64,000 bases of DNA from Solwaraspora sp. WMMD791 (GTDB taxonomy: Bacteria > Actinomycetota > Actinomycetes > Mycobacteriales > Micromonosporaceae), in NCBI RefSeq assembly GCF_029581195.1, contig NZ_CP120737.1, positions 3,015,001 to 3,079,000 on the forward strand, given 5' to 3'. Numbering within the stretch: the first letter of the stretch is position 1; the number at the start of each line of letters is the position of its first letter. The position numbers and the translations under genes are program-made. This document shows, in pieces, positions 30,752 to 50,222 of the stretch. The notes below the pieces were generated by a model. The model ran no database searches. It had not been told where the DNA came from and was given only the letters and a program-made list of their open reading frames with translations.

Positions 30752-32374
30752 GTGAGTGCACTCTCGCGCCGGTCGGTCCTTACCGGATCAGCCGCGCTCG
30801 GTGGCACCCTCGCCGCCACTCAATTGGGCATGAATCCCAGCCACGCCATACCGGCGGACCAGCGGCCGGGGACGCTGCCGGAAGCTCAGGTCGTCCCGCG
30901 CGGCGACCGACGGCACTCCGGTCTGTCCCGCGGACAGAACCAACGTTTCGTCAGCGACCCCGACTACGTTCGGCTGCCGCGGTCCACCTCGGAGGTGGTC
31001 GGTGCCGTCACCCGCGCGGTCGCTGAACGGCGACGTCTGACGGTCCGCAGCGGCGGTCACTGCTACGAGAACTTCGTCGACAACCCCGAGGTGCGGGCGA
31101 TCGTCGACATGACCGAGATGCGGACGATCGCGCACGATCCGACTCGTGGAGCCGTCATGGTCCAGGCCGGTGCGACGCTCGGCGAGGTCTACTACGCGCT
31201 GTTCCGCCGCTGGGGAGTCACCCTGCCCGGCGGATCCTGCTACACGGTCGGCATCGGCGGCCACGTCAGCGGTGCCGGGTACGGTCAGATGGGCCGGCTA
31301 CAGGGCCTGATCGTCGACCATCTGCAGGCGATCGAGGTCGTCACGGTGGGCCGCGACGGCCGTGCCCGACCGATCGTCGCCTCCCGGGATCCCGCCGATC
31401 CGCACCACGATCTGTGGTGGGCGCACACCGGAGGAGGCGGCGGCAGCTTCGGGGTCAGCACCCGCTACTGGTTCCGGTCACCCGACGCGGTCGGTAACCA
31501 CCCGTCCCAGTTCCTGCCGGCCCCGCCGTCCGACGTGTGGATCTGCACGGTGACCTGGGACTGGGCCGACTTCGACCGGGAGTCCTACGGCCGGCTGCTG
31601 GACAACTACGGCCGGTGGCACGAGCTGAACAGCGATCCCGCATCGCCGTACGCCGGGCTGTTCGCCCGGCTGGAGCTGACCACCCGACCCAACGGCAGCT
31701 TCAGCATGATCGTGCAGATGGACGCCACCCGACCCGACTCCCGGCAGCTACTCGAACGATTCATCGCGGCGGTCAACGACGGGGTGCAAGCGTTCGGGAC
31801 CGTCGGTCAGTTGCGCCGGCTCCCCTGGCTGCACGCCACCGGTTGGCCCGGGCTGTGGATGAGCAATCCGACTGACCGGTACAAGTACAAGTCGAGCTAC
31901 CAGCGACGCGCGTTCTCGCCGGGCCAGGTCGACGGCTTCTGGCGAGTGCTGTCCGGGACGAGCTACGACAACCCGGGCTGGGTCGTCTCCATCGCCTCGT
32001 ACGGCGGTCGGATCAACACGGTGTCGCCGACCGCCACCGCGACACCACACCGGGACTCGGTCCTCAAGCTGCTCTGGGGCACCGCCTGGACCGACGCCGC
32101 CGACGATCAACGACACCTGGGCTTTCTCAGCGAGTTCTACCAGGCGGTGCACGCACACACCGGCGGCGTGCCGGTGCCCAACGAGGTGACCGACGGCTGC
32201 TTCATCAACTACGCCGACGTCGACATCAGTGACCCGGCACAGAACACCTCGGGTGCGGCCTGGCACGACCTCTACTGGAAGCAGAACTATCCTCGGCTGC
32301 AGCAGGTCAAGGCACGCTACGACCCGAACAACGTGTTCCGGCACGCACAGTCGGTCAGGCCGGCCGGCTCCTGA
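30752..32374 (+). CDS. BBE-type FAD oxidase, Tat-exported, likely bicovalent FAD
   Basis: The GTG at 30752 follows GGAGGTACACCCA. The 540-residue protein has a Tat leader (SRRSVLTGSAALGG) and the FAD-PCMH domain, with RSGGHCYENF supplying the 8-alpha-histidyl His and GGSCYTVGIGGHVSGAGYG supplying the 6-S-cysteinyl Cys. The C-terminal BBE segment is WHDLYWKQNYPRLQQVKARY. This double-linked layout is used by aclacinomycin oxidoreductase-like and sugar oxidases that oxidise bulky alcohols. Its stop overlaps the CreD-like gene's stop by 20 bp (convergent). It might tailor the cluster product outside the cell, which is inference from location. Confidence 0.9.
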   Translation: MSALSRRSVLTGSAALGGTLAATQLGMNPSHAIPADQRPGTLPEAQVVPRGDRRHSGLSRGQNQRFVSDPDYVRLPRSTSEVVGAVTRAVAERRRLTVRSGGHCYENFVDNPEVRAIVDMTEMRTIAHDPTRGAVMVQAGATLGEVYYALFRRWGVTLPGGSCYTVGIGGHVSGAGYGQMGRLQGLIVDHLQAIEVVTVGRDGRARPIVASRDPADPHHDLWWAHTGGGGGSFGVSTRYWFRSPDAVGNHPSQFLPAPPSDVWICTVTWDWADFDRESYGRLLDNYGRWHELNSDPASPYAGLFARLELTTRPNGSFSMIVQMDATRPDSRQLLERFIAAVNDGVQAFGTVGQLRRLPWLHATGWPGLWMSNPTDRYKYKSSYQRRAFSPGQVDGFWRVLSGTSYDNPGWVVSIASYGGRINTVSPTATATPHRDSVLKLLWGTAWTDAADDQRHLGFLSEFYQAVHAHTGGVPVPNEVTDGCFINYADVDISDPAQNTSGAAWHDLYWKQNYPRLQQVKARYDPNNVFRHAQSVRPAGS

Positions 32375-33857
32375 GCACGCCAGCGACGGCACCGTCGTCG
32401 GCGCGGGTGGCGGCGTCGCCACCCGCGCCGACGACGGCGACGCCACAGCGCCGCAGTACGACGCCGACGATCTCGGCACTGGCACCCAGGTAGCGGCTGG
32501 GGTCCAGCAGTTGCTCCCAGCCGCCGGCCTCCGCCACCGTGGCCTGCACCGATGCGGTCTGAAGTTCCGGGTCGTCCACCAGTACGTCGCCGAAGTCGCG
32601 CCCCTGTCGGACGGCCGAGCGGGCGATCCGGCCGAGCAACTTCTTCACCTCGCCGCGATCGAGCACCTGCGACAGGACGGCATTGATCCGCTCGGCGACC
32701 ACCGCTCCCCCAGTGAGCGTCAAGTTGTGCCGCATCCGGTCAGCACGTACCTCCAACCCGCCGAGTAGTTCCCGGGCCGTCGCGCTGGCGCCGGCCGTCA
32801 GCCGCAGGCATTCCCGCATCGGGTACCACTCCGCGTGCCACCCGCCAGCCGACCGTTCATCCTCGGCGAGCAGGCACTGATGCAGAAGCATGGCGTGCGC
32901 CGGTACCTGACGCGCCGCGCTGACGATGAGCGTGGCCAGGACGGGATTACGCTTCTGCGGCATCGCCGACGAGACGCCCCGACCGGCGCGGGCCGGTTCC
33001 GCTACTTCACCGACCTCCGTACGGGCCATGCCCTGCACATCGATCGCCACCTTGCCGAGAGTGCCGGTGACCAGGCTGGTCACCGCCCCGATCCCGGCCA
33101 CCGGAGCCCGCAACGAGTGCCACGGCACCACCGGGGCGGTCATGCCCAACTCCCGGGCGAACGGTTCCACCAGCGATAGCGGCGAATCCGTCGGCGGCAC
33201 CCCGGCCAGCGCCGCGTACTCGGCGTACGCGGCGAGGGTGCCGGCCGCGCCACCGAGCTGCACCGGTAGTCCGGTGGCGAGCACCGCGTCCAGACGTTCG
33301 CGAGCGTCCAGGACCGAGTTGCACCAGCCCGCCGCCTTGACGCCGAAGGTGATCGGCACCGCGTGCTGGGTCAACGTACGGCCAGCCATCGGCGTCAACC
33401 GGTGGTCGGCGGCGAGCGCGGCCGACGCCACCACGATGGCGTCGAGGTCGGCACGGACGACCCGCAGCACCCGGCCGGCGATGAGCATCGTCGCGGTGTC
33501 CAGGATGTCCTGGCTGGTGCCGCCCCGGTGCACGTACTCGGCGGCCGCCGGGTCGACGGCGCGTACCTGGTTGGTGAGCGCCTCGACGAACGGCACCACC
33601 GGGTTGGCCGCTCCGCGCGCGGCGGCCGCGAGCGCGGTGACGTCCAACGCGGTGTCCGCCGCTGCGGCGACCACCGGGATCACCCACTGCGGAACGATCC
33701 CGAGGTGGCACTGGGCGCGCAGCAGGGCGACCTCCACCTCGGCCATGGCCCGCACGTACGCCTCGTCGGTGAGCAGGTCGGCGGCCGACGGTCCGGCCCA
33801 CACCGGTGCCAGCAGTCCGGCGTCGACGCCGGCCCCGGTCGGCGGCTGCCCGCTCAT
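32355..33857 (-). CDS. CreD-like nitrosuccinate lyase (aspartase/fumarase superfamily)
   Basis: The 500-residue protein belongs to the superfamily that includes 3-carboxy-cis,cis-muconate cycloisomerase. It has GGTSQDILDTA near residue 112 and the signature SSAMPQKRNPV near 300. The C-terminal 100 residues are the PcaB-like tail. CreD of cremeomycin synthesis belongs to this same family and eliminates nitrous acid from nitrosuccinate to give fumarate. The start ATG overlaps the stop of the CreE-like gene (ATGA), and this pairing is diagnostic of the aspartate-nitrosuccinate pathway. Without the neighbour it would be called a muconate cycloisomerase-like lyase. Confidence 0.85.
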   Translation of the reverse strand: MSGQPPTGAGVDAGLLAPVWAGPSAADLLTDEAYVRAMAEVEVALLRAQCHLGIVPQWVIPVVAAAADTALDVTALAAAARGAANPVVPFVEALTNQVRAVDPAAAEYVHRGGTSQDILDTATMLIAGRVLRVVRADLDAIVVASAALAADHRLTPMAGRTLTQHAVPITFGVKAAGWCNSVLDARERLDAVLATGLPVQLGGAAGTLAAYAEYAALAGVPPTDSPLSLVEPFARELGMTAPVVPWHSLRAPVAGIGAVTSLVTGTLGKVAIDVQGMARTEVGEVAEPARAGRGVSSAMPQKRNPVLATLIVSAARQVPAHAMLLHQCLLAEDERSAGGWHAEWYPMRECLRLTAGASATARELLGGLEVRADRMRHNLTLTGGAVVAERINAVLSQVLDRGEVKKLLGRIARSAVRQGRDFGDVLVDDPELQTASVQATVAEAGGWEQLLDPSRYLGASAEIVGVVLRRCGVAVVGAGGDAATRADDGAVAGVLRSRPA

Positions 33858-35878
33858 CGGGTGCCGCCGCCGGTGCTCAGCGCGGGCGTCCGGTTGGCCG
33901 CAGTGGTCGGCAGCCAGGCAAGCGGGATGTGCTGGTGCAGGTAGAACGGGCTGGACCGACGGGCCTGCCGCGGTGGTCCGGCGAACGCCAGACAGGCTCG
34001 CGCGATGGCGTCCGCATCGGCCAACGTCACCGAGTCCACCCCGGGACGGATACCGGCGGCGGTCACCCAGTGCACGGTCTCGGTCGGTACGCCGAACGCG
34101 AACCGCCGTGGGTGGCTCCGCCCCTCTGCGTCGACCAGGCGGTACGGTCGCTGGCTGACCCACATGCCGCCCGTCTCGTAGTCGTCGCCGGTCGGGTCGG
34201 GGATGCGGTACGGCCGGCAGCCACCCCTCCGGCGCAGGTCGACGGTGAGGGGGTCATCGGTACGGCGTACGTCGAACTCCGGCAACCGGGCCTCGATGAG
34301 CCCGGACACCGATGTCGCCGGCTCCGGGACGGCCTGCGACCAGACCTGGAAGACCTGCGCGTCGGTGGCCACCCGCATCCCGGGCCCGAGGACACGCAGT
34401 ACGCCTGACTCGATCAGCGCGATCATCTCCGCGATCCGCCGGGCCGGCGGTCCGATGGAGACGAAGGCGTTCAGTGGGGTGTACCAGCCGACGAGTTCGT
34501 CACGGTAGGAGCTGCCGGCGAGGCCACCGTGGTCCACCACCAGCCGTACCTCGTTGCGTAGGTCTCGCATGGCGTCGAGGGCAGACTTGAGCGGGCTGTC
34601 GACGTTGCCGCGCAGTGCCTCGCGCAGGTCCGCACGTAGGTGGTCGAGCAGCCAACGTTGGTAGTGGTCACCGGTGGCGAAGTGTCGTGTCCCGTACGGT
34701 GTGCTGATCCGCTGCCAGTCCCACCACTGGGAGCGGTCGACGCCGAAGCGCCCCAGCAGTCGCCGTACGGCCAGTTCGTCGTTGGCCCACCGGACGAACT
34801 CGCGCTGGAACCGCGCCGCGACATCGACGCCCCGACTGGCCTTGATCAGGGCGTGGTAGTAGACGGCTTGGACCTCCCGCGAGATCAACGGCCAGACTTC
34901 GGTGGCGAAGCGGGGCGGGTCGCCGGCGCGCGAGCGCCATCGCCACCGCCGGATCACGTCCCCGGTCAGGAACAGCGGCTGGTGGCGTTCGGCGACGCCC
35001 TTCTGGTTCTCGCCCCGCGCGTGGTAGGGCACTCCGCGCCGCGACCCGGCGTACAGCCGCGGCTCCTGGCCGGAGGGCAGGTACCGGAGCTGGTCCGGCG
35101 AGCCGGTGAACCGGCCGCCTCGGCCTTCACAGAGCAGGGTCAGGTAGTCGAAGAAGTTGAGCCCCATTCCGCGCAACGCGATCGCCTGCCCGGGCGCGAT
35201 GTCGTCGAGCCGTACCTCCGCGGGACTGCTCGGCGGTTGGTAGTACAGCCGGTGGCGGGTAGCGTGCGCCGCGAGCCGCCGGTGCTCCGGCTCGGCCGGC
35301 ATGGACAGGTGGCCCTGGGCGAGGACCACCGCGTCCAACCGGTCCAGGCGGGTCCCGCCGGCCAGTACGGCGACCTGGCGGCCGTCGGGGCCGTCGTCGA
35401 GCCGTACCACCCGGTCGACGTGCCGGCGGATGAGAATCCGCGGGTCCGCGGTGGCAATGATCCTGGCGAGCACCCAACGCAGGTAGTAGCCGTACAGGGC
35501 ACGGGAGGGATAGTCGTTCGGCCCGAGCGACCGGGCCTGCGCGAGAATCTCCGCCGGGTACCCCTCGGCTGGGTCGATGATCGCCAGTGCCCGCGCCCAT
35601 TCGTCGAGGCGTGGCCCCGGTCGCACCGGGCCGACGCAGGTGACGCTGTCGTCGGTGAACAGGCTGATCTGGCAGGCGATCGTGTTCATCAGCAGGGACC
35701 GCGCCTGATCGGTGCGCCAGACCTGGCTACCCTGGTCGATGAATGGATCAACGATGTCGATCTCCACCCGGCTCTGTGGCCAGTCTGCGAGGTTGGCGAC
35801 GATACGCTCAAGAGTGGCCAGATTCCGGGGTCCGGCACCGATCAGGCACAATCGCAGCACGCAATCTTTTCCGGCCAT
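33854..35878 (-). CDS. CreE-like FAD/NAD(P)-binding L-aspartate N-monooxygenase
   Basis: The ATG at 35878 (GAGGGATCCC just before it) gives 674 residues. The N-terminal dinucleotide motif is CLIGAGPRNLATLERI. A second, NADPH-type, region contains GQAIALRGMGLNFFDYLTL, and LLMNTIACQISLFTDD matches the FAD/NAD(P)-binding class to which CreE belongs. CreE oxidises L-aspartate in several steps to nitrosuccinate. It is the upstream gene of a coupled pair with CreD, so the pair should make nitrous acid from aspartate. It is divergent from the LAL regulator across about 305 bp, a natural cluster promoter. Assignment relies on family plus pairing. Confidence 0.85.
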   Translation of the reverse strand: MAGKDCVLRLCLIGAGPRNLATLERIVANLADWPQSRVEIDIVDPFIDQGSQVWRTDQARSLLMNTIACQISLFTDDSVTCVGPVRPGPRLDEWARALAIIDPAEGYPAEILAQARSLGPNDYPSRALYGYYLRWVLARIIATADPRILIRRHVDRVVRLDDGPDGRQVAVLAGGTRLDRLDAVVLAQGHLSMPAEPEHRRLAAHATRHRLYYQPPSSPAEVRLDDIAPGQAIALRGMGLNFFDYLTLLCEGRGGRFTGSPDQLRYLPSGQEPRLYAGSRRGVPYHARGENQKGVAERHQPLFLTGDVIRRWRWRSRAGDPPRFATEVWPLISREVQAVYYHALIKASRGVDVAARFQREFVRWANDELAVRRLLGRFGVDRSQWWDWQRISTPYGTRHFATGDHYQRWLLDHLRADLREALRGNVDSPLKSALDAMRDLRNEVRLVVDHGGLAGSSYRDELVGWYTPLNAFVSIGPPARRIAEMIALIESGVLRVLGPGMRVATDAQVFQVWSQAVPEPATSVSGLIEARLPEFDVRRTDDPLTVDLRRRGGCRPYRIPDPTGDDYETGGMWVSQRPYRLVDAEGRSHPRRFAFGVPTETVHWVTAAGIRPGVDSVTLADADAIARACLAFAGPPRQARRSSPFYLHQHIPLAWLPTTAANRTPALSTGGGTR

Positions 35879-36183
35879 GGGATCCCTCACTGGTTCGCCG
35901 AGGCATTGGCGTCGAGGACCCAAGTAGACGTCGACGACAAACGGTCAGGCATCACGTCAACACGGGATATCGACGTACGTCCTTGTGAGATCACACACGT
36001 ACGGCCACCGTGAGCCGATGATCCTCCTAAGTAGCGGATCGATTTCTCTCGGTATAGAATTGCCCACGGCTGGCCATCACCGCGTCGGCAGGGTGCCGTC
36101 ATCCTCCGCACCAGAGCAGGCGTGCTTCGTTTTGTGTTACACCACACCCGACGCCTCACTCCGCGCACCGGGAGGGTTCGTAC
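35879..36183. other. 305-bp divergent promoter region of CreE-like and LAL genes
   Basis: No gene is visible. The only coding signal is the ribosome site GGGAGGG of the LAL gene at 36170. The stretch is more AT-rich than its surroundings (for example near 36040-36060) and carries partial dyads (CGACGTACGTC, GTGAGATCACAC). It probably holds both promoters and the LAL binding site. No single operator stands out. Confidence 0.5.
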
Positions 36184-39180
36184 GTGTCTGTGGGAGAAAG
36201 CCCTGCGCACTATCCGCACGTGGTAGCCGCGATGACTACCAGAGCTGGCACGCAGCCCGTCCCGGAGATGATCGGCAACCGCATGATCGGACCCGTGGGT
36301 GAGGGCTACCCGGGCCTGCGTGCCGGCACCGTCCGCCGGCACGGCGCACTCGTCACCGGCCACCGGCTGTTCGCGCCGCCGCTGGTGGGTCGCGCCGACG
36401 TCCTTCTCGACCTGCATCGCGCACTGATCGAAACGGCGTCCGGCGCGGGCGGGTGCATCGTGGTCCAGGGCAGCGCAGGAATCGGCAAGAGTCGGCTGCT
36501 GGACGCCGCCGCCGTCGAGGCTCGCGCGCTGGGCATGGCGGTCGCGGTCGGCCGGGCGACGGCGCTCGACCGCGCCGCGCCGCTGAGCACGATGCGGTCG
36601 CTGTTACAGAACGCGCAACCACCCGGTCTCGACCTGATCACCGCCAGCGACCGCGGCGTCAATCCGCTGTGGCTGGTCGATCAGATCGCCGAACAGATCG
36701 AGCAGTACGTACGGCGGCAGCCGATGCTCGTCTGCCTGGACGACGCTCACCTCTGCGACGAGCTGACCTCCCTGGCTCTGCGCATCCTGGTGCCCGAGCT
36801 GGCCTCGTCCCCACTGACCTGGCTGCTGTCGCGCCGGCCCGCCGCGGTGCGCACCTTCGGGCAGGATGCCATCGACTGGTTGATCGGCGAAGGTGCCCGC
36901 GCCCATGATCTGGAGCCGCTGAGCAAGGAGGCGGTCACGGACTTCTGTGCGAGCATGCTCGGAGCCGCCCCGGACGACTCGGTCGTCACGATGGCCGAAC
37001 GCGGGGACGGCAACCCGTTCCTCCTCGAACAGCTCCTGTCCACCCTGCGCGACACCGGGCAGCTCACCGTCACCAATGGCGTCGCTACGCTGGTCGGCAC
37101 CGAGTTGACGGCCGACTTCCTCAGCGCGGTCGACCTGCGGCTGCGCGACCTACCCGAGCTGACCCGGCGGATCCTCGACGCGTCCTCCGTACTGGGCCGC
37201 CCGTTCACCGTGCACGAGGTGGCGGGCCTGGTCGGTCGTTCGGCGATCGAGCTGCTCCCGGCCATCGACGAGGCGGTCTCCGCCGCACTTCTCGAGGCGG
37301 ACGGCACCGAGTTGCGCTTCCGCCATGACCTGATCCGCGAAGCGCTGTACGGCCAACTCTCCGAACCGGTCCGGCGGGTCCTGCACCGGGAGGCCGCGAC
37401 CGTGGTGCAACGGGAGGGACGCTCCGCCGTCGAGGTCGCCGAACACCTGGTACGGGGCGGACACGCCGGCGACGGGCAGGCCCTCCTGGTGCTCCGCCAG
37501 GCAGTCGCCCAGATCGCTCCGACCGCACCGAACACGGCCGCCGACCTCATCCTGAGGATGCTCGACCTGATCAACCAACACGACCTGTCCCGTCCGCAAC
37601 TGGTCGCCGAGGCGGTGCGGCTGCTCGCCCTGGGCGGCCGGATCAGCGAAGCGATCGCGCTGGGCGAGGCCACCTTGCACACCGGGCTGGATTCGGCGCA
37701 GGAGGCGGCGCTGCTCCTCGGACTCGCCGAGGCCCTGCACGTCACCGGGCACAGCGGTGATGTCGTCAACTACGCCTCACGGGGCATCGGCCGGGCCCGG
37801 CCCGGTGACCCGGTCCGGGCCGAACTGCTCTCCGTACAGGCGTATGCGCTGCTCGACACCGGCGACATCGCGGGCGGAGACAACGCCGGGACCGAGGCCG
37901 CGGCGCTCGGCGCCGCCACGGGCGCCTACGGTGCCCTGGTGTGCGGCACAAGTGCCCGCTCGATCGCGGCAAGGATGGTCGGCAATCTGCGGGCCGCCGT
38001 GGGCTACGCCCGCGACGCCGTACGGATAGCCGAACAGGTCGGTGGGGAGGCCCGCCGCCGACATCCGCGCCTGTGGCTGGCCGCCGCACTCACCGCGGTC
38101 GACGAGTTCACCGAGGCCGAGGCCCTGTTCACCCACGATCAACGCGAGTCCGACAGCCTCGGCACTGCCTGGACCCAGCCCCGGTGGTACTACCACCGGG
38201 CGACCATGCTGGCGCTGAGCGGACGCCTCGACGATGCCGTGGCCGAAGCCGAGGCAGGCGCCCGAGTCGCCGAGCAGCTCGCCGCGCCGGCGTTGAGCCT
38301 GCCGCTGCTCACCCTGCTGGCCAGCCTGTCGATCCACCGCGACGACCTGGCCGGCGCGCGGGACCGTCTCGGCCGGGCACACGAAATCGTCGCCGCTGGC
38401 GACGTACCGGTACCAGCGGACCTGACCTGGACGGTCGCCCAGTTCCAGATCTCCTGTGGAGAGTCGGCCAGCACGGCGATCGCGCCGATCGTCGCCGCGC
38501 TCACCGACGACCAGGTGCTGCTGCGGATGCTGGCCCGCCGACCGTGTGCCGCGCCTCAGCTGGCCCGGCTGGCCCGAGCCGCCGGCGCCGACTCCCTCGC
38601 CGCCGCCACCGTCGAGACCGCCCGCCAGCTGGCCCGCCGCAACCCGGACATCCCGTCGCTGGTCGGGACCGCCGAGCACGCTGCGGGCATCATCCACGAT
38701 GATCTCGGTGCGCTGCGCCGGGCCGTGCACACCCTGGAACAGAGTCCGAGGGTGATGAGCCGGGCCGCCGCGATGGAAGACCTGGCAGCGCACGAGGACG
38801 TCAACGTTCGCCGGGACGACGCGGTGCGACTGGTCGAACAGGCCCTGGCGATCTACCTTTCGTGCAACGCCGTCCGGGACGCCGCGCGAGCCCAGAAGAT
38901 TCTTCGCGAGCTGGGGGTACGCCGTCGGCAGCGGCAGGCCAACGCGACGAGTGGCCAGGGCTGGGGCAGCCTGACCGCGTCGGAACTGCGGGTCGTCCGG
39001 CTGGTCGCCGAAGGTCTGACGAACCGGCAGGTGGCCGCCCAACTGTTCGTGTCACCCCACACCGTCGACAGCCACCTGCGCCACAGCTTCAGCAAGCTAG
39101 GGGTGACCAGTCGGGTCGAACTGACCCGGCAGGTCCTGCTCCACGACCGGGCCGCAGGTGCCACGACCGGCGACGACTGA
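36184..39180 (+). CDS. LAL-type LuxR transcription activator
   Basis: The GTG at 36184 is preceded by GGGAGGG. The 998-residue protein has an AAA-type ATPase domain at about 60-330: Walker A GSAGIGKSRLL and Walker B MLVCLDDAHLC. A long TPR-like middle follows, then a C-terminal LuxR HTH at about 920-985 (LTASELRVVRLVAEGLTNRQ, then VAAQLFVSPHTVDSHLR). LAL proteins are large cluster-situated activators of antibiotic genes. It faces away from the CreE-CreD pair and lies beside the reductase/AHBA operon, so it is the obvious pathway switch. Confidence 0.92.
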   Translation: MSVGESPAHYPHVVAAMTTRAGTQPVPEMIGNRMIGPVGEGYPGLRAGTVRRHGALVTGHRLFAPPLVGRADVLLDLHRALIETASGAGGCIVVQGSAGIGKSRLLDAAAVEARALGMAVAVGRATALDRAAPLSTMRSLLQNAQPPGLDLITASDRGVNPLWLVDQIAEQIEQYVRRQPMLVCLDDAHLCDELTSLALRILVPELASSPLTWLLSRRPAAVRTFGQDAIDWLIGEGARAHDLEPLSKEAVTDFCASMLGAAPDDSVVTMAERGDGNPFLLEQLLSTLRDTGQLTVTNGVATLVGTELTADFLSAVDLRLRDLPELTRRILDASSVLGRPFTVHEVAGLVGRSAIELLPAIDEAVSAALLEADGTELRFRHDLIREALYGQLSEPVRRVLHREAATVVQREGRSAVEVAEHLVRGGHAGDGQALLVLRQAVAQIAPTAPNTAADLILRMLDLINQHDLSRPQLVAEAVRLLALGGRISEAIALGEATLHTGLDSAQEAALLLGLAEALHVTGHSGDVVNYASRGIGRARPGDPVRAELLSVQAYALLDTGDIAGGDNAGTEAAALGAATGAYGALVCGTSARSIAARMVGNLRAAVGYARDAVRIAEQVGGEARRRHPRLWLAAALTAVDEFTEAEALFTHDQRESDSLGTAWTQPRWYYHRATMLALSGRLDDAVAEAEAGARVAEQLAAPALSLPLLTLLASLSIHRDDLAGARDRLGRAHEIVAAGDVPVPADLTWTVAQFQISCGESASTAIAPIVAALTDDQVLLRMLARRPCAAPQLARLARAAGADSLAAATVETARQLARRNPDIPSLVGTAEHAAGIIHDDLGALRRAVHTLEQSPRVMSRAAAMEDLAAHEDVNVRRDDAVRLVEQALAIYLSCNAVRDAARAQKILRELGVRRRQRQANATSGQGWGSLTASELRVVRLVAEGLTNRQVAAQLFVSPHTVDSHLRHSFSKLGVTSRVELTRQVLLHDRAAGATTGDD

Positions 39181-42124: not shown

Positions 42125-43228
42125 TCACTTCTCGAGGCAGAACTCGGAGATCGGGTGGCCGACGTGGCGGTCGGCGACCGGCAGGTAGCCGAGCAGCCGG
42201 TCACCGGGGCGTAGTTCGGTGCTGTTGAGCACCGCACCGCCGGGGCCGAGCACCCGGACGTGCCAGTCGTCCTGCAGGATCAGGTTGACCTCGGTGCCGT
42301 CGGCAGCGACCGCGTCGACCGAGATCAGCGGACGGCTCTCGATCTTGACCCGGCCGACCGTGACGGCCCGGGCCCGGCCCTTGACGTCGACCGCGAGCAC
42401 CTTGCTACCCGCCATGAGCTCGCTGAGGTAATTGGTGCGGCCGCCGACCGAGAGGGTGTAGGAATGGATGGCTCCGGCGTTGACTCGGAACGGCCGGGTC
42501 GGCATGTACGGCAGCGGATGGGTCTCGCTGACGCACAGCACCATGCCCTTGGAGTGGGATCCCACCAGAATCCCCTCGTCCTTACCGAAGTAGGTGCAGG
42601 TGTCCACGCATGCGCGTTCACCCATGCCGACGTGCGCGGTACGCACCACCTCGAGTTCGACGAGATCGAGGTGCTGGACCTGGTCGGTGGCCGCGCGGGC
42701 GAGCGCGGTCGTCTGGCCCACCTCCGTCGGCGCGAGCAGAACCCCGTCCGAGCCGTGTTCCAGCACGCCGAAGACGATCTCCGCCTCCTCGATGTCGGCG
42801 ACCGTGGTGATCATGCTGCCGTTGGCACCCGCGCTCGCCGCGATCACGATCTCCAGAGGGATCTTCGTCGGGTCCTTGAAGTGCAGCAGACACCACCGGT
42901 CGGTGCGGGCCGCCGCGCAGGCCAGGTCTAGCGTCGGAGCGTCGACGATCTCCACGTACCGGCCGAACTCGACGTCCGGATGGCGACCGGCCAGCTCGGC
43001 CGGGTGACCGTGTACCTGCGGGTCGACGATCACGACGTCCACGCCGGTGAGGTCGGACGGGAGTTCACCCGCCGGGACCAGCACCTTGCGGATCGTGGGC
43101 GGCAGTTCGGCAAGGTCGGCGACGCTGTCCGCGACCACCGCGTCCACCCGCTGGTGGATCGCCTCCTCCACGACGGCGGCACGGATACCGGCCAGGCCAC
43201 GGACATCGATCCAGCAGAGCTTGCTCAC
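42125..43228 (-). CDS. GriH-like 3-dehydroquinate synthase II family enzyme (3,4-AHBA synthase)
   Basis: The 367-residue protein is of the DHQ synthase II type (archaeal AroB'), not the standard AroB. Motifs include KDPTKIPLEIVIA, EVVRTAHVGMGERACVDTC, LVGSHSKGMVLCVSETHPLP and FRVNAGAIHSYTL. In grixazone and nitroso/diazo pathways, GriH-type enzymes turn the C7 amino-keto product of GriI into 3-amino-4-hydroxybenzoic acid. The GriI-like gene lies directly upstream, so the pair is complete. GGAGGAAACTC precedes the ATG at 43228. Confidence 0.88.
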   Translation of the reverse strand: MSKLCWIDVRGLAGIRAAVVEEAIHQRVDAVVADSVADLAELPPTIRKVLVPAGELPSDLTGVDVVIVDPQVHGHPAELAGRHPDVEFGRYVEIVDAPTLDLACAAARTDRWCLLHFKDPTKIPLEIVIAASAGANGSMITTVADIEEAEIVFGVLEHGSDGVLLAPTEVGQTTALARAATDQVQHLDLVELEVVRTAHVGMGERACVDTCTYFGKDEGILVGSHSKGMVLCVSETHPLPYMPTRPFRVNAGAIHSYTLSVGGRTNYLSELMAGSKVLAVDVKGRARAVTVGRVKIESRPLISVDAVAADGTEVNLILQDDWHVRVLGPGGAVLNSTELRPGDRLLGYLPVADRHVGHPISEFCLEK

Positions 43229-43365: not shown

Positions 43366-44175
43366 TCACACGGGCGCGAGGATCTCGTCCCGTACGGCGA
43401 CCCTGCCCGGATGCACGAGCGCGACCACCCGACGGGCCTGCCCCGAGGGATCCGGGGCCTGGAAGATGTTTCGGCCCATCGCGAGTCCGGCTGCCCCGGA
43501 CCGCATCACCGCTTCCACGTAGCCGGCCAGCTCCGGCCACCCGTCGCGGACGCCTCCTCCGGCGACCACCACCGGGATCGGGCAGTCCGCGACCACTTCG
43601 GCCATCGCGCCCGCGCTGCCCGCGAACGGGACCTTGACCAGGTCGGCGCCGAGGTCGGCGGCGAGGGTCGCGGCGTGCGCCACCAGTTCCGGTGCGTGCG
43701 GGTCGTCGATGCGCGGACCCCGGGGGTACATCATGGCGAGCACCGGGACACCCCACCGATCCGCTTCCTCGGCCACGGTCGCCAGGTCGGCGAGTTGCCG
43801 CGCCTCCTCCCGTGAGCCGATGTTGACGTGCACGCTCACCGCGTCGGCGCCCCGGCGTACCGCCGCCGAGACACTGGCCACCAGGAACTTCGCATCAGGG
43901 TCGGCCGCATGCCGGGTACTTGCACTGAGGTGCACGATCAGCGCCGTCGTTCCGAACGCTGCCGGGTCCACCGCGCGGACGCTGCCCCCGTGCAGCACGA
44001 CCGCGTCCACACCGCTGTCGGCCAGCCCGGCGACGAGCGGACCGAGCCGGTCGGCGCGCATCAGTGGGCCGTCGCTGACGGAGTGATCCAGTGGAACCAC
44101 GAGGAGCCTGCCGTCACCGTGTCTGGTGAGCCGCCGGAGTCTCAGTTGGGTCCCGAACGACCGGAGGACAGCCAT
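43366..44175 (-). CDS. GriI-like aldolase (DHAP + aspartate semialdehyde)
   Basis: The 269-residue class I aldolase has VVPLDHSVSDGPLMRADRLG, the DhnA/ADH-synthase front motif, and the Schiff-base Lys in GADLVKVPFAGS (about residue 182). GriI joins dihydroxyacetone phosphate to L-aspartate-4-semialdehyde to make the C7 precursor of 3,4-AHBA; archaeal homologues make 2-amino-3,7-dideoxy-hept-6-ulosonate. The neighbours are aspartokinase on one side and GriH on the other. This order, with the kinase supplying semialdehyde precursor, supports the AHBA assignment. Confidence 0.9.
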   Translation of the reverse strand: MAVLRSFGTQLRLRRLTRHGDGRLLVVPLDHSVSDGPLMRADRLGPLVAGLADSGVDAVVLHGGSVRAVDPAAFGTTALIVHLSASTRHAADPDAKFLVASVSAAVRRGADAVSVHVNIGSREEARQLADLATVAEEADRWGVPVLAMMYPRGPRIDDPHAPELVAHAATLAADLGADLVKVPFAGSAGAMAEVVADCPIPVVVAGGGVRDGWPELAGYVEAVMRSGAAGLAMGRNIFQAPDPSGQARRVVALVHPGRVAVRDEILAPV

Positions 44176-44211
44176 GATGCGTTCCCTTCTGGGCGTACGG
44201 CGCGACGGTCG

Positions 44212-45468
44212 TCACGCCAGGGTCAGCGAGCCGGTCGGGATCTCCGGCCGGTCCAGGTTCAGACGCCGGTGCAGCGCCGCAGCAGCAGCGACGAGTCGGT
44301 CCCGTGGTACGACAGCGGTGATCCGCAGCTGGGTGGCAGCGATCAGACTGACTGGAACGGCCTGCTCGGCGAGCACGTCGAGCATCGCTGCGGCGTTCTC
44401 CGGACGGCTGAACAGACCTGCGCCGACCAGTGACAGCTTCCCCACCGACGGATCCATCGTGTACCGCGCGTCGGCGCCGATCGCCGAACTGCCCAGGGCG
44501 TCGGTCGCGTCCGGCACGTCGCTACGCCGGATGGTGAAGCGCATCGACCGACCAGTGCCACCGCCCGACTCGGGCAGGGTGACCATGTCGACCGGCACCG
44601 ACGCCGCAGCGAGCACGCCCAGTACGTACCGGGCGAGGTCCGGGTTGTCCCGCATCGGCTCGATCCGCACGAGCGCGGCGTCGGGGTCGTGGGTCACCGC
44701 AGTGACGAATCCATCGTTCTCCATCATTGCTGGATCGCTCCGTCCGAGAATCGTGGTGCCTGGCTGGCGCGACATCGAGTTGCGTACCACCAGGTCCATC
44801 CCGCGGGCCGCCGCCAGTTCGACGGCCCGGCAGTGCAGCACCCGGGCACCGGCGAAGGCCATCTCCGCCATCACGCCGACGCCGACCGTGTCCAGGACAC
44901 GGGCCTGCGGCACGATCCGGGGGTCCGCGGTGAAGACACCCTCGACGTCGGTGTAGATCTCGCAGCTGACAGCGTCGAGCGCAGCGGCCAGGGCGACGGC
45001 GGTGGTGTCCGAGCCACCTCGCCCGAGGGTCACCACGTCACCGTCGGGCGTCATTCCCTGGAACCCGGCGACCACCACGACCTTCCCGGTGGCCAGATGG
45101 CGGCGGATCCGCTGGTCGTCAACCTCGGCGATCATCGCCGTACCGTGCCGTCCGACGGCCGAGATGCCGCCCTGCGCGGCGGTGAGCGAGATCGCCGGCA
45201 TCCCCCGGTCCTGCAGAGCCAGGGCGACCAGGGCCGCCGCAGCGTTCTCACCGGTGACCAGCAGTTGGTCCAGTTCCCGCCCGGAACGGATCATCGCCAC
45301 CTCGGCCGCTTCGGCGATCAGCCGGTCGGTGGACGCACCTCTGGCCGACACCACGACGACCGTGGCGAGGCCGTCCCGGCGGCACTCCGCCACCCGGCCG
45401 GCCACCGATCTGATCTGCGCACTGCTGGCCAGGGAGGTTCCGCCGTATTTTTGCACCGCAATTTTCAT
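44212..45468 (-). CDS. aspartate kinase, cluster-situated
   Basis: The 418-residue kinase starts MKIAVQKYGGTSLA, the classic aspartokinase front, with GRGGSDTTAVALAAALDA and the catalytic CEIYTDVEGVFTADPR. Two C-terminal ACT-like domains follow (VTHDPDAALVRIEPM; KLSLVGAGLFSRPENAA). Cluster copies often escape feedback inhibition, but no change of a known inhibitor residue can be claimed by eye. It makes aspartyl phosphate, raising semialdehyde for the GriI-like aldolase. An aspartate-semialdehyde dehydrogenase is not in the window and must come from the genome. It heads the operon down to the epimerase. Confidence 0.92.
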   Translation of the reverse strand: MKIAVQKYGGTSLASSAQIRSVAGRVAECRRDGLATVVVVSARGASTDRLIAEAAEVAMIRSGRELDQLLVTGENAAAALVALALQDRGMPAISLTAAQGGISAVGRHGTAMIAEVDDQRIRRHLATGKVVVVAGFQGMTPDGDVVTLGRGGSDTTAVALAAALDAVSCEIYTDVEGVFTADPRIVPQARVLDTVGVGVMAEMAFAGARVLHCRAVELAAARGMDLVVRNSMSRQPGTTILGRSDPAMMENDGFVTAVTHDPDAALVRIEPMRDNPDLARYVLGVLAAASVPVDMVTLPESGGGTGRSMRFTIRRSDVPDATDALGSSAIGADARYTMDPSVGKLSLVGAGLFSRPENAAAMLDVLAEQAVPVSLIAATQLRITAVVPRDRLVAAAAALHRRLNLDRPEIPTGSLTLA

Positions 45469-45699
45469 GACATCGCCAATCAGAGCAGGAGCGGTGACCG
45501 CCACCAATACTCGGACACCAACGAAGTGGACCACATCACGCGATCACCTGACATACATCTTCGTCATTGCAAATAGCGCTAGGAGCAACAACGAGAAGCG
45601 GATCCCGCAAACGCGCCATGGACAGGATGATTGGGCCCGGGAAGAATCATCGCAACGACGTTCCCACGGGAATGCACAACAAGACAGGGAGGAAGAGCA

Positions 45700-46062
45700 A
45701 TGAGCAACGTGGTAGGACCGAACTTTCTGACTCTGCAGGTCCGCGATCTGGAAAGGTCCCGCACCTTCTACCGCGACATCGTCGGCTTCGTGCCCGGCGA
45801 GTCGAAGGTGCCGACCGCCGCCGTATTCGAGGCGGATCCGATCAACCTCGCACTCCGGCAGACCTCGATCGACCTCGACTCGGTCTCGCAGCTCGGCTGG
45901 GGTGTGGTGATCTGGATCAAAGCGAAGGATCCGGACGGCCTCGCCGCGCACCTGCAGCAGAACGGCGTCACGCTGACCAAGCCCCCGTGCGACGGATTCT
46001 GCGGCCGGGAGTTCCAGTTCCGCGACCCGGACGGGTACGAACTGACCGTCTACGAGGGGTGA
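45700..46062 (+). CDS. VOC family protein (glyoxalase/bleomycin-resistance fold)
   Basis: GGGAGGAAGAGCA precedes the ATG at 45700. The 120-residue protein has the paired beta-alpha-beta-beta-beta units: LTLQVRDLERSRTFYRDIVG and GREFQFRDPDGYELTVYEG. It could be a metal enzyme of the pathway or a drug-binding self-resistance protein. It is 31 bp ahead of the CreM-like ligase and likely co-expressed with it. The 231-bp gap to the divergent kinase gene would hold the promoters. Confidence 0.85.
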   Translation: MSNVVGPNFLTLQVRDLERSRTFYRDIVGFVPGESKVPTAAVFEADPINLALRQTSIDLDSVSQLGWGVVIWIKAKDPDGLAAHLQQNGVTLTKPPCDGFCGREFQFRDPDGYELTVYEG

Positions 46063-46092
46063 CCCGCGGGACCAGCCGATCAGAGGTGGACG

Positions 46093-47778
46093 ATGAACCC
46101 TCCTGACGTACTGCCCAGAATCACCGTCGACGTGTCCGCGCGGATCCCGCTCTCCGTACGGCTCAGGCTCGCGGTCGACCGCGACCTCGGCGTGGGCAAC
46201 TTCCTTGACCGGGTGTGCGCGCACACCCGGCGCTCCGACCGGCCGTTCCTCTTCGCTCAACGGCCTGCTTCCCACCCGGCCGGACCGGTCGAACCGTTCA
46301 GCCTGGACAAGTTGACGCGGACACGTGATGCGTACGCTGCCTGGTATCACACGGCCGGAGTCGGCAAGGGCGACCCGGTTGCGGTCTACGTCGACAACGG
46401 CATCGACCCGTTCCTGCACTTCCTCGCGGTCAGTTCCCTCGGGGCGGTGGCGGCGTTGATCAACGGCCGGATGCCCGCCCCGGTCGCGGCCGAGTACATC
46501 ACCCGCATCGGCGCCGTCGGCGTCGTGGCCACCGCCGATCGGCTGGACGCGCTACGCCGACACGGCATCGGTACGCGGTGGATGGCGGACCACGACGAAC
46601 TGTCCACCGTCCCCATGACCAACGCCCTTCCGCCCCGCTACCCGTATCCGCATGCCGACGATGACCCCGTCATGCTGTGCCACACCTCCGGCACGACCGG
46701 GCCGCCGAAGGCCGCCACCTTCGGCCACCGCCAGTTCTTCCTCGGAAAGCGACAACGGCTCTGGAACTTCCCGGCGGCCAGCCGAAACCGGCTGCTGTCC
46801 GCCCTGCCGCAATCACACTCGGCCGGGATCAGCTACCTGATGACGGCGACCCTGCTGGGCCTGCCCACGCTGGTGATGGCGGATTCCAGCGGCCAGGCGG
46901 TACATCAGGCCATGGCCGCGTTCCGGCCGTCGATGGTGGTCGCGTTCCCTGAGACGTACGCCGAGTTGGCCGAGATGTCACTCGACCCCTCCGCCACCAC
47001 CGACATACACACCTGGATCAACACCGGCGACTCGGCCCACGAGGCGCACATCCGCGCGCTGATCCGGCATGGACGCCGGCCCGGTCGACGAGGTGGACGC
47101 CCCGGCTCCCGCTTCGTCGACGGGCTCGGCTCGTCGGAGATGGGTATGGCACTGTTCCGCAAGGTCAGCGAGCCGGAGAGCGCGGACTACGGCAGATGCG
47201 TCGGCACCCCGATCGGGGTGGTCCGCGAAGCGGCTGTCCTGGACGACGCAGGACGGCTCCTCGGCCCACACCAACCTGGTCGGCTCGGCGTGCGCACCCC
47301 GACCCGGACAGCCGGCTACTGGAACGACTCCGCGACCACCAACCGGTCGTCGATCTCCGGATACTGGTTGACCGGTGACGTCGTCTACCGCGACGAGACC
47401 GGCAAGTTCTACCACCTGGACCGGGTGCCCGACGTCATCCACACCAGCGGCGGGCCGGTCTACAGCCTGCCGTTGGAGGAGGCCATCCTGGTGGGCTGCC
47501 CGCAGATCGCCGACTGTGCGGTGGTGGCGGTCAGGGCACCGGGCCCGGAGACCGGGGACGTGCCGTTCGCCGCGGTCAAGCTGGCCCCCGGTGCGGCGGA
47601 ACCGGACGACCTGCTGGCGACCGTGAACTCCGCACTCGCGGCACGGGATCTACCGACGCTGCGGGCGGTCGCGGTCGCCACCGATCCGGCCGACTTCCCG
47701 ACCGGCCCGACCGGCAAGGTCTTGAAGCGTCAATTGCGGCAACGATTCAGCGCTGTACTGCAACAACCTGTGACCTGA
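46093..47778 (+). CDS. CreM-like AMP-forming ligase, candidate diazotase
   Basis: The 561-residue enzyme has all core motifs of the adenylate-forming family: A3 TSGTTGPPK near 198, A5 GLGSSEMGM near 345, A7 YWLTGDVV near 427 and the A10 lysine in GPTGKVLKRQL near 541. In cremeomycin synthesis, an acyl-CoA-ligase-like enzyme, CreM, uses ATP and nitrous acid to turn the 3-amino group of 3,4-AHBA into a diazo group. The gene order here (AHBA genes, nitrous acid genes, this ligase, methyltransferase) supports that role. An ordinary acyl- or aryl-CoA ligase is the alternative. Confidence 0.82.
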   Translation: MNPPDVLPRITVDVSARIPLSVRLRLAVDRDLGVGNFLDRVCAHTRRSDRPFLFAQRPASHPAGPVEPFSLDKLTRTRDAYAAWYHTAGVGKGDPVAVYVDNGIDPFLHFLAVSSLGAVAALINGRMPAPVAAEYITRIGAVGVVATADRLDALRRHGIGTRWMADHDELSTVPMTNALPPRYPYPHADDDPVMLCHTSGTTGPPKAATFGHRQFFLGKRQRLWNFPAASRNRLLSALPQSHSAGISYLMTATLLGLPTLVMADSSGQAVHQAMAAFRPSMVVAFPETYAELAEMSLDPSATTDIHTWINTGDSAHEAHIRALIRHGRRPGRRGGRPGSRFVDGLGSSEMGMALFRKVSEPESADYGRCVGTPIGVVREAAVLDDAGRLLGPHQPGRLGVRTPTRTAGYWNDSATTNRSSISGYWLTGDVVYRDETGKFYHLDRVPDVIHTSGGPVYSLPLEEAILVGCPQIADCAVVAVRAPGPETGDVPFAAVKLAPGAAEPDDLLATVNSALAARDLPTLRAVAVATDPADFPTGPTGKVLKRQLRQRFSAVLQQPVT

Positions 47779-47844
47779 CGGAGCCGCCCGGCGGCGTACC
47801 CGGCGCCGGGCCGGCCTGTCCCACCAACCACAAGGAAGGTTCCG

Positions 47845-48945
47845 ATGACCTCGCAAGCTGATGCCGCCAACTGGCCGACGTACGGCCGCGACGACATGCC
47901 GGGCAGTGACGCCATCACGTTGCACCACGGAACGAACGCGCCCGCCCCGGTCCGCATGTACGAGATGCTCTACAGCTCACTGGTCAGCCAGCTGCTCGTC
48001 GCGGTCGCTGACATCGGCGTGGCTGATGCCTTCGGCAGTCTCGAGGAGCACTGCCACGTCGACGAACTCGCCCGACGGACCGGCAGCGACGCCGCCGCGC
48101 TGTACCGTGCGCTGCGGGCCCTGGCCAGCGTCGGGGTGTTCACCGAGGTCGCACCGCGCACCTTCCGACTCACTCCGCTGGCCGCCACACTGCGCAGCGA
48201 CGAGCACGGATCCATGCGCGACCTCGCCCGCTACGTCGGGCTACCGGAACGGCAGCGGGCATTTGGCGCGCTGGCCCACAGCCTGCGGACCGGCAAGCCC
48301 TCGTTCGACCAGGTGCACGGCACCGACTGGTGGACCTACTTCGGGGCCCGACCCGAGCTGTCCGCACTGTTCAACCGGGCGATGGGCACGATGGCTCGCA
48401 TGGTCAACTCGGCCACCCTGGAGGCGCATGACCTGTCCGACGCCCGCCGGTTGGTCGACGTCGGCGGCGGCAAGGGTCTCCTGGTGTCGACCCTGCTGCA
48501 GCGTTACCCCAAGCTGACCGCGGTGGTATTCGACCAGCCGGCGGTGGCTGCCGAGGCGGCCGAGGTGCTGGCCGCCGCCGGGTTGCAGGACCGGTCCGAG
48601 TGTGTCGGCGGCGACTTCTTCACCTCGGTGCCGGCGGACGGCGACGTCTACGTGCTGTCGTGGACGATCCACGACTGGAACGACCGGGACGCCATCGCGA
48701 TCCTGCGTAACATCCGGTCGGCGATGCGCGAGGACGGCCAACTCATCGTCATCGACGAGGTGCTGCCTGAGGGCGACGCACCGCACTTCGGCAAGTTCGA
48801 GGACATCGTCATGTTGTCGCTGCTCAACGGTCACGTCCGCACCGAGCCGGAGTTCGTACGATTGTTCGAGGCCGCCGGGCTGCGGCACAAGGAGACGCGG
48901 GGAACCCCCGCGCCCACCAGCGTGATCGTCGCGGTGCCGGCCTGA
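47845..48945 (+). CDS. SAM-dependent O-methyltransferase
   Basis: The 366-residue enzyme is the two-domain class used for aromatic hydroxyls: a helical dimerisation domain (LLVAVADIGVADAF, ALYRALRALASVGVF) and a Rossmann domain with the SAM motif RLVDVGGGKGLL near residue 206. The catalytic segment is VLSWTIHDWNDRDA, with the catalytic His in IHDWND, followed by LIVIDEVLPEG. It should methylate a phenol of the benzoate-type scaffold. It is followed 78 bp later by the SAM synthetase gene, which would supply its cosubstrate. Confidence 0.9.
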   Translation: MTSQADAANWPTYGRDDMPGSDAITLHHGTNAPAPVRMYEMLYSSLVSQLLVAVADIGVADAFGSLEEHCHVDELARRTGSDAAALYRALRALASVGVFTEVAPRTFRLTPLAATLRSDEHGSMRDLARYVGLPERQRAFGALAHSLRTGKPSFDQVHGTDWWTYFGARPELSALFNRAMGTMARMVNSATLEAHDLSDARRLVDVGGGKGLLVSTLLQRYPKLTAVVFDQPAVAAEAAEVLAAAGLQDRSECVGGDFFTSVPADGDVYVLSWTIHDWNDRDAIAILRNIRSAMREDGQLIVIDEVLPEGDAPHFGKFEDIVMLSLLNGHVRTEPEFVRLFEAAGLRHKETRGTPAPTSVIVAVPA

Positions 48946-49023
48946 TCCGTCGGCCCGCGCAGTCTGCGGCCGGCCGCCGCACCCGCTGGTGGCCGCCGCG
49001 CCCCCGTTCAGACAGGAGTCGCC

Positions 49024-50222
49024 ATGCCCTACCACCGTCTCTTCACCTCCGAGTCTGTGACGGAGGGTCATCCGGACAAGATCGCTGACCAGATCAGTGA
49101 CGGGATTCTTGATGCGTTGCTGGCGCAGGACCCGCGGTCGCGGGTCGCTGTGGAGACGTTGATCACCACCGGTCAGGTGCATGTGGCCGGGGAGGTCACC
49201 ACGCAGGCGTACGCCGATATTCCGGCGATCGTGCGGGAGACGATCCTGGGGATCGGGTACGACTCGTCGAAGAAGGGGTTCGACGGGGCGTCGTGCGGGG
49301 TGAGTGTGTCGATCGGTGCGCAGTCGCCGGACATCGCGCAGGGGGTGGACACGGCGATCGAGTTGCGGGTCGGTGAGTCGGCCGATGACGCGTTGGACGC
49401 GCAGGGCGCGGGTGATCAGGGCATGATGTTCGGGTTCGCGTGTGCGGAGACGCCGGAGCTGATGCCGTTGCCGATCGCGTTGGCGCATCGGTTGGCGCGG
49501 CGGTTGTCGGCGGTGCGTAAGGATGGGACGGTGCCGTATCTGCGGCCGGACGGTAAGACGCAGGTGACGGTGGAGTACGACGGGTGGCGTCCGGTGCGGT
49601 TGGACACGGTGGTGGTGTCGAGTCAGCACGCGGCGGACATCTCGTTGGAGTCGTTGTTGACGCCGGACGTGCGTGAGCATGTGATCGGGCCGGAGTTGGA
49701 GGGTCTTGGTCTGGATACGGAGGGTTACCGGTTGTTGGTGAACCCGACGGGTCGGTTCGAGATCGGTGGTCCGATGGGTGACGCGGGTCTGACCGGTCGG
49801 AAGATTATTGTGGACACGTACGGTGGGTATGCCCGGCATGGTGGTGGGGCGTTTCGGGCAAGGATCCGTCGAAGGTGGATCGTTCGGCGGCGTACGCGAT
49901 GCGGTGGGTGGCGAAGAACGTGGTCGCGGCGGGGTTGGCGGAGCGGTGTGAGGCGCAGGTGGCGTATGCGATCGGTAAGGCGCATCCGGTGAGTTTGTTC
50001 GTGGAGACGTTCGGTACGGAGACGGTGCCGGTGGAGCGGATCGAGCGGGCGGTCGGTGAGGTGTTCGATCTGCGGCCGGCGGCGATCATCCGGGATCTGG
50101 ATCTGTTGCGGCCGATCTATCGGCCGACGGCGGCGTACGGGCATTTCGGTCGGGAGTTGCCGGAGTTCTCGTGGGAGAGCACGGACCGGGCGGCGGATCT
50201 GAAGTCTGCCGCTGGCGCCTGA
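49024..50222 (+). pseudogene. metK: S-adenosylmethionine synthetase with single-base frameshift
   Basis: MetK signatures are intact: [20 protein letters not shown], the [12 protein letters not shown] loop, [20 protein letters not shown], and in the next frame [31 protein letters not shown] and the [12 protein letters not shown] tail. Near 49852-49857 the DNA reads GGGGCGTTTCGGGCAAGG, where the family has [12 protein letters not shown]. One base is missing, so the protein would be cut after about residue 276. Either the gene is dead or this is a sequencing error. It uses many TTG and CGG codons unlike nearby genes. As a cluster copy it would feed the methyltransferase. Confidence 0.8.

Follow-up and report, generated by a model that had tools for sequence, protein, structure and literature searches.

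Background

The described system closest to the locus reported here is the crx (crexazone) cluster of Streptomyces sp. CS057, whose gene order is A1-A2-B-C-A3-D-E-K-I-H-N-M-F-R1-T-P-R2 according to the section on mutant construction (PMC11429834). In that text, crxA1 encodes a DAO flavoprotein, crxC a cupin, R1 a LuxR-type and R2 a TetR-type regulator, and the methyltransferase is CreN-like. Here, we analyzed a 64,000-nt stretch (the window) of the genome of Solwaraspora sp. WMMD791 (Micromonosporaceae; GCF_029581195.1, NZ_CP120737.1, positions 3,015,001-3,079,000), and found in it a set of 17 genes that, to judge from their sequences, very probably forms a cluster of the crx type. All coordinates below are positions in the window.

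All crexazones are lost in CS057 when crxD, crxE or crxA1 is deleted; without crxM, crexazones 2 and 3 disappear and 3-acetamido-4-hydroxybenzoate is spared; deletion of crxC has no effect, and the LuxR regulator activates the cluster. The experiments were carried out in the dark, and none of the three isolated products carries a diazo group. The authors consider two explanations, that a diazo product was lost or that the step is cryptic, and leave degradation possible (PMC11429834). Genes for the formation of a diazo group are thus essential for compounds that have none, for which the crx study could give no reason.

Relatives and gene content of the Solwaraspora locus

The DAO flavoprotein is the most telling gene of the set. 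When 84,980 species genomes were scanned for it, 10 loci were obtained, and in seven of them the flavoprotein gene is surrounded by homologues of further window genes. These seven relatives, with 60-67% identity in the flavoprotein in the scan and 61-68% in a second comparison, are Streptomyces sp. ISL-36, S. lateritius, Marinactinospora thermotolerans, Saccharopolyspora elongata, S. spinosa, S. shandongensis and Nocardiopsis endophytica; since the scan requires exact short peptides, seven is a lower bound. The remaining three loci belong to Chloroflexi and are 26-38% identical, and neither of the two that were examined lies among cluster homologues.

The gene order in S. lateritius (DAO, NmrA, short-chain dehydrogenase/reductase (SDR), cupin, berberine-bridge-type oxidase, CreE, aspartokinase, GriI, GriH, O-methyltransferase, CreM, vicinal oxygen chelate (VOC) protein, LuxR, small multidrug resistance (SMR) transporter, SDR and TetR) runs in step with the published crx list, CreD apart. 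At the one spacing checked, from the end of crxA1 to the end of crxC, the published fragment measures 2,627 bp and that of S. lateritius about 2.6 kb. The DAO, NmrA and SDR genes are adjacent in all eight genomes, the window included. All 17 kinds of gene are assembled in one locus in the window, S. shandongensis and Marinactinospora (in the latter two on one contig), and the window copies of all 17 kinds are 34-75% identical to those of the relatives. The other five loci are incomplete, partly at contig breaks or at the ends of the fetched stretches. In S. spinosa, only GriH is missing, where the fetched stretch ends; in N. endophytica, CreD and CreE are not in the 28.7 kb examined, and the pair is on another contig; the locus of S. 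elongata is split over contigs, with no berberine-bridge-type oxidase found in the stretches fetched; and that of ISL-36 stops at a contig end, with CreD not seen there. A CreD relative exists in each of the seven genomes, within the locus or elsewhere, and a CreM-like ligase is present in the crx-type locus of all seven.

In the window, the 17 genes span about 26.9-48.9 kb, or up to 50.2 kb with a broken metK copy, and all 17 frames are intact. The genes named in the original prediction, an earlier annotation made from the sequence alone, are open frames with strong family matches, and all of them except the VOC gene and the first part of metK passed a simple filter based on GC content by codon position. 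The Pfam scan covered the 20 proteins between 26.9 and 51.4 kb, and the NCBIfam scan also covered an SDR and the SMR transporter; no polyketide synthase (PKS), non-ribosomal peptide synthetase (NRPS) or CreL-type (FAD_binding_3) hydroxylase was found among them, so that the earlier statement to this effect was borne out for the 20 proteins scanned with Pfam.

The original prediction had delimited a diazo-type cluster at 32355..50222. The core genes do lie inside this interval, but its borders are too narrow: a FAD oxidase (30752-32374) lies outside it, and the cupin, SDR, SMR and TetR genes farther to the left (26900-30470) are conserved cluster parts in the relatives. Of the O-methyltransferase and SAM synthetase that it listed, the former was recovered, but the latter is frame-broken. 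Three coupled oxidoreductases (39204-42096, minus strand), a VOC protein and a Tat-exported FAD oxidase, which it regarded as extra tailoring candidates, are all present, but they are conserved members of the crx-type set rather than extras.

The predicted nitrite branch

The genes for a nitrosuccinate lyase (creD/crxD, 32355..33857, minus strand) and an aspartate N-monooxygenase, or nitrosuccinate synthase (creE/crxE, 33854..35878, minus strand), share 4 bases of their reading frames. Over 596 aligned residues, CreE shares 54% identity (625 bits) with 8CP2, a solved aspartate N-hydroxylase from Streptomyces. Twelve active-site and aspartate-binding residues were picked from those named for this structure in the excerpted text of PMC10404684, and 11 of them are retained; the one lost, Arg597, is located at the tunnel entrance (PMC10404684). 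CreD aligns with its Streptomyces cremeus counterpart (5XNY) at 55% identity across 463 residues. It keeps all 17 residues named in the excerpted text of PMC13411527, and the nitrite fingerprint E49/H118/D125/H253/R341 is complete, as is the loop SSxMPxKRNP (the numbering carries an offset of 13, read from the SS-loop). With these residues, CreE and CreD should make nitrite.

The predicted aminohydroxybenzoate branch and the ligase

The second branch consists of a 3-amino-4-hydroxybenzoate (3,4-AHBA) synthase of the griH type (42125..43228, minus strand; DHQS PF01959), a DhnA-type aldolase of the griI type (43366..44175, minus strand) and an aspartokinase at the crxK position (44212..45468, minus strand; NF005155, 395 bits, cut-off 346), which together should make 3,4-AHBA, as their homology indicates. 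GriH is the sole DHQS-II match in the whole genome. In an even sample of the class, from which nothing firm follows for the window's family, it occurs in 18 of 394 genomes, its own included.

The two branches would meet at an ATP-dependent ligase of the CreM/AvaA6 type (crxM, 46093..47778, plus strand), predicted to activate nitrite. In NCBIfam, it matches the AvaA6 diazotase family (NF058622) best, with 441 bits, against 196 bits for the top family of ordinary acyl-CoA ligases; among solved proteins, it scores 303 bits with Tri17 (9BQ0/8TF7, identified as such in the excerpted text of PMC11705231) and 104 bits with FadD13. Two solved entries outscore Tri17, however: 8ZTZ, a 'putative AMP-binding enzyme' (370 bits), and 9XB8, which was deposited under the name 'FadD' (341 bits). 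Both are known by deposit title, and a literature search found no papers naming either of them. In a tree of 24 ligases located near CreE or in crx-type loci (24 of 25 were kept, the short match L072 being dropped), built without Tri17, AvaA6 and the ligases of S. lateritius and ISL-36, the window copy falls inside a crx-type clade of six with support of 100/99. On its scores with AvaA6 and Tri17, the ligase groups with nitrite-activating ligases. In S. lateritius and ISL-36 (L188 and L190), the ligase match consists of two overlapping pieces in one longer open frame, as if there were an insertion near query residues 330-350.

Flavin enzymes and associated oxidoreductases

The gene at the crxA3 position (30752..32374, plus strand) encodes a berberine-bridge-type FAD oxidase (PF01565 and PF08031) with a twin-arginine translocation (Tat) signal, whose closest solved relative is TamL (552 bits). 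The RR signal and the motifs GGHCYE and GGxCY, with the His and the Cys expected for bicovalent FAD attachment, are kept in all seven of the crx-type copies that were found. For CS057, the authors suggest that GriF-like enzymes coded elsewhere, or CrxA1, form the quinone-imine (PMC11429834). A search for tyrosinase-family genes, which covered this family and not multicopper oxidases, other oxidases or spontaneous oxidation, found none in six of the eight crx-type hosts, including the window genome (several of these genomes being drafts), and a match in the other two, both Streptomyces. The same search found none in 14 control genomes; the seven relatives, two of them positive, were added afterwards. 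If GriF is a member of the tyrosinase family, as we assume, the GriF-type route seems not to be shared across the set, and the Tat-exported oxidase is proposed as a candidate for the last, quinone-forming oxidation outside the cell.

The crxA1-like DAO-family flavoprotein (40966..42096, minus strand; DAO PF01266) and its seven relatives keep what we take to be the flavin-binding cysteine and the substrate-site arginine and lysine of sarcosine oxidase. Opposite the oxygen-activating lysine of that enzyme (presumably Lys265), however, all eight have Val, in a weakly aligned region. This apparent loss of the lysine in all eight CrxA1-like proteins makes the role of an ordinary amine oxidase doubtful. 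The adjacent genes encode an NmrA-type reductase at the crxA2 position (40073..40969, minus strand; NmrA and NAD_binding_10; 51-53% identity in seven relatives) and an atypical extended SDR at the crxB position (39204..40076, minus strand; 54-59% in seven relatives). The latter lacks the YxxxK motif, and its AlphaFold model (mean pLDDT 90) resembles generic extended SDRs. Its best NCBIfam family is AvaA7 (NF058621), with 116 bits, far under the cut-off of 400. This model draws SDRs at E<=1e-25 from 66 of 394 actinomycete genomes, many with 230-297 bits and none over the cut-off, so the match says little.

Proposed pathway and alternative explanations

Following the homologues, the aspartokinase would supply aspartate semialdehyde, and GriI and GriH would build 3,4-AHBA, while CreE would convert aspartate to nitrosuccinate and CreD would release fumarate and nitrite from the latter. 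The CreM-like ligase would then use ATP to activate nitrite and would nitrosate the amine on the ring; the o-quinone diazide (diazonium) so formed would be a transient intermediate. Tailoring of the ring may fall to the DAO flavoprotein, the two reductases, the SDR and the methyltransferase, and the Tat-exported flavin oxidase may finish the oxidation extracellularly. N-methylated aminoquinones or phenoxazinones similar to crexazones would be the end products expected; LuxR would turn the cluster on, and the SMR and VOC proteins would presumably protect the producer. The gene content, the catalytic residues of CreE and CreD and the clade of the ligase were established here by comparison. To the explanation as a whole, namely a crx-type cluster that joins nitrite and 3,4-AHBA through a transient diazo compound to crexazone-like products, we assign a probability of roughly 0.7; that crexazone-like compounds are the main products has, taken by itself, about an even chance.

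What the original prediction had said about the chemistry was supported in part. Of the three outcomes that it had named as refuting, the two on the CreE/CreD matches and on the ligase were checked, and both checks favoured the prediction. The coupled CreE/CreD-like pair agrees residue for residue with nitrite-forming enzymes, and the comparison of best matches came out for these rather than for enzymes that form no nitrite. The GriI/GriH-like pair and the aspartokinase are present with strong family matches, the ligase stands nearer to AvaA6 and Tri17 than to acyl-CoA ligases, and the proposed coupling of the nitrite and 3,4-AHBA pathways by way of a CreM-like ligase is supported; that aspartate feeds both branches follows from homology. 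It was probably also right to expect a product different from cremeomycin, with no CreL-type hydroxylase among the scanned proteins. The term 'diazo-type' is plausible for an intermediate, but because the three products isolated in the crx study have no diazo group, a diazo end product is not established.

Several observations weigh against the explanation preferred here. The gene order in the window differs from that of crx, and the link to CS057 runs through the order in S. lateritius and the text of the paper, in which A2, B, A3, K, F and P could be assigned purely by their position. The S. lateritius cluster itself lacks CreD, a CreD/CreE pair being on another contig, and orf25, at the crxT position, is a major facilitator superfamily (MFS) transporter in the excerpted text (PMC11429834), where the window and S. 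lateritius have an SMR protein. Four of the key proteins score under the cut-offs of their best NCBIfam families: CreD (NF052556, 576 against 650 bits), GriH (NF041224 BagC/FevH, 612 against 750), GriI (NF041223 BagB/FevI, 332 against 500) and the ligase (441 against 975). The absence of tyrosinases rests on partly draft genomes and on a search that left other oxidases outside, and the crexazones are possibly shunt products.

This last point leads to the alternative that a light-labile, cremeomycin-like o-quinone diazide is the true end product, the crexazones arising by shunt or breakdown. The constant presence of the ligase in the loci of the seven relatives and of a CreD relative in their genomes would fit such a product, the SugE-type exporter and the VOC protein would be in keeping with a reactive compound, and degradation is left possible by the crx authors (PMC11429834); however, no diazo compound was isolated from CS057 despite the dark experiments (PMC11429834), and a CreL-type hydroxylase is missing from the 20 scanned proteins. 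We regard this alternative as possible but doubtful. Diazotization might instead serve deamination, as in avenalumic or p-coumaric acid, with the crxB-like SDR replacing N2 by hydride. The AvaA7 family match points in this direction, and the missing YxxxK might be dispensable when hydride is passed to a diazonium; yet that match is far under the cut-off and is surpassed by many other actinomycete SDRs, the cluster has no PKS, and the crexazones retain nitrogen. With a model so unspecific and a fold so generic, AvaA7-type deamination was demoted to a rival explanation, and it seems quite improbable.

A ligase that acts on the 3,4-AHBA carboxylate (as acyl-AMP or CoA), with nitrite used otherwise, is hardly credible: the protein belongs to the ANL superfamily and its second-best solved match, 9XB8, was deposited as FadD, but its scores with Tri17 and AvaA6 far exceed those with ordinary acyl-CoA ligases, and deletion of crxM in CS057 spares just the one-ring product (PMC11429834). 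A decaying, silent import, as the broken metK copy and the occurrence of a crxA1-like gene in one of 354 family genomes might suggest, is very improbable as well, in view of the 17 intact crx-type frames, the intact metK elsewhere and a break in a short T run that is possibly a reading error. Within the preferred explanation of a crx-type cluster with crexazone-like products, one could go further and postulate a new route to phenoxazinones or aminoquinones, in which nitrite-derived diazotization activates an aminophenol and N2 is the leaving group of this cryptic diazo step, the Tat-exported bicovalent-flavin oxidase replaces a GriF-type copper tyrosinase and forms the quinone or quinone-imine extracellularly, and the CrxA1-like protein, without the oxygen-activating lysine, is no ordinary amine oxidase; this proposal is speculative and on balance rather unlikely.

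Other members of the cluster

At the left end of the cluster are a crxR2-like TetR regulator (26900..27589, minus strand; TetR_N PF00440; 48-55% identity in six relatives), the SMR efflux transporter at the crxT position (28797..29114, minus strand; SugE type, NF008512, 135 bits, cut-off 126; 53-59% in six relatives), a classical SDR oxidoreductase at the crxP position (29165..29911, minus strand; NF009383, 230 bits, cut-off 343; 61-67% in six relatives) and the crxC-like cupin (29961..30470, minus strand; Cupin_2; 43-62% in seven relatives). The missing MFS gene was sought by eye in the frames at 25.0-26.9 kb, and nothing was found. A SugE-type SMR gene exists in the window and in six of the seven relatives, the stretch from ISL-36 ending before this part; by eye, SMR genes are paired in tandem in Marinactinospora (18715-19468 of the joined stretches) and Nocardiopsis (16736-17528). 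An exporter of small cations stands beside a presumed maker of an aryl-diazonium.

The crxR1-like LuxR-type ATPase regulator (36184..39180, plus strand; GerE and AAA_16) has a TTA at codon 141, the sole TTA codon among the 18 genes scanned. At the right end, the VOC-fold protein at the crxF position (45700..46062, plus strand; Glyoxalase PF00903; 59-65% in five relatives) gave an AlphaFold model with a pLDDT of 64.5; inspection of its sequence by eye suggests that it has not kept the first of the metal-binding positions of the FosA-type enzymes. It is followed, beyond the ligase, by the crxN-like methyltransferase of the O-methyltransferase family (47845..48945, plus strand; Methyltransf_2 and Dimerisation; 56-74% in seven relatives).

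A nitronate monooxygenase (27667..28725, plus strand; NMO PF03060, 306 bits) has no match in the stretches fetched from the seven crx-type genomes and is therefore probably an addition of this genome. In the family of the window, such a gene was found near CreD/CreE in the fetched stretches of eight of 22 genomes, adjoining CreD in four of the eight. Nitrosuccinate, the CreE product, decarboxylates to nitropropanoate, which is in equilibrium with its nitronate (PMC13411527, excerpted text), and so the enzyme may clear this by-product.

The metK copy (49024..50222, plus strand) consists of two parts in different frames and is identical at 1,245 of 1,249 positions (99.7%) to the intact housekeeping copy elsewhere in the genome (G000:C1:1578898-1580070). 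The identity reaches bases past the stop, and a 1-base gap in a short T run breaks the frame, which points to recent copying or gene conversion, or to a reading error.

To the left of the cluster, 4611-25036 has the appearance of a type VII secretion neighbourhood, with subtilases (4611-8021 and 11361-12731), a CHAT-TPR protein (12870-15638) and an FtsK/SpoIIIE ATPase (20585-25036). What resembles a polymorphic toxin is encoded at 16303-19083; it has a weak match to a type VII secretion signal and a glutamine-deamidase domain of the papain fold. A glutathione-transferase-family protein, perhaps of the quinone-reductase sort, is encoded immediately outside the cluster on the other side (53084-54481).

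Distribution

CreE relatives (E<=1e-60) exist in 33 of the 354 genomes of the window's family, its own included, and a crxA1-like gene (E<=1e-70) in one, the window's own. In the stretches of about 19-40 kb fetched from 22 of the 32 other CreE genomes, GriH/GriI were found near CreE in none. From these counts, the cluster is rare in the genomes searched and was probably acquired as an import. A different 3,4-AHBA and nitrite cluster was seen in a genome of another family (G683, L111 and L112), with CreD, CreE, a CreM-like ligase (47%), GriH, GriI and a berberine-bridge-type oxidase; a metK (78%) stands beside its CreD, and no DAO match was found in the 26-kb contig.

Comparison with known clusters

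The ava/cma clusters, as described in the excerpted text of PMC10777205, share with the window the 3,4-AHBA synthase, the aspartate-nitrosuccinate (ANS) pathway, the diazotase and, remotely, an AvaA7-like SDR, whereas their highly reducing type II PKS (KS/CLF), acyl carrier protein (ACP) and acyl-ACP ligase were not found in the Pfam scans between 26.9 and 51.4 kb. The cre cluster of S. cremeus shares CreE, CreD, CreH/I and CreM, as well as a broadly similar methyltransferase; in contrast to it, no CreL-type hydroxylase was found among the scanned proteins of the window, and the direct protein comparison was with CreD (5XNY). The crx cluster of CS057 shares the kinds of genes as far as the text of PMC11429834 names them, while the window differs in gene order, in having an SMR rather than an MFS transporter, a nitronate monooxygenase and a broken metK, and in belonging to another actinomycete family. 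The literature searched contained no second paper on a crx cluster, which is no proof of its absence from print; PMC11881777 names crexazone twice.

So, genes for nitrite, 3,4-AHBA and a ligase were already known together as the crx set, and the Solwaraspora locus adds a new member, outside the Streptomyces crexazone producer, to a pathway that has been described but is still poorly understood. What is new here is the spread of the set, the exported oxidase in all seven loci in which it was found, the lack of a tyrosinase match in six of eight hosts and the apparent loss of a lysine in all eight DAO flavoproteins. The eight genomes, from several families, form a comparative set in which 17 conserved genes suggest what the pathway needs, a tyrosinase route seems not to be shared by six of the eight hosts, and the exported oxidase and the DAO flavoprotein, seemingly without its usual lysine, offer specific targets.

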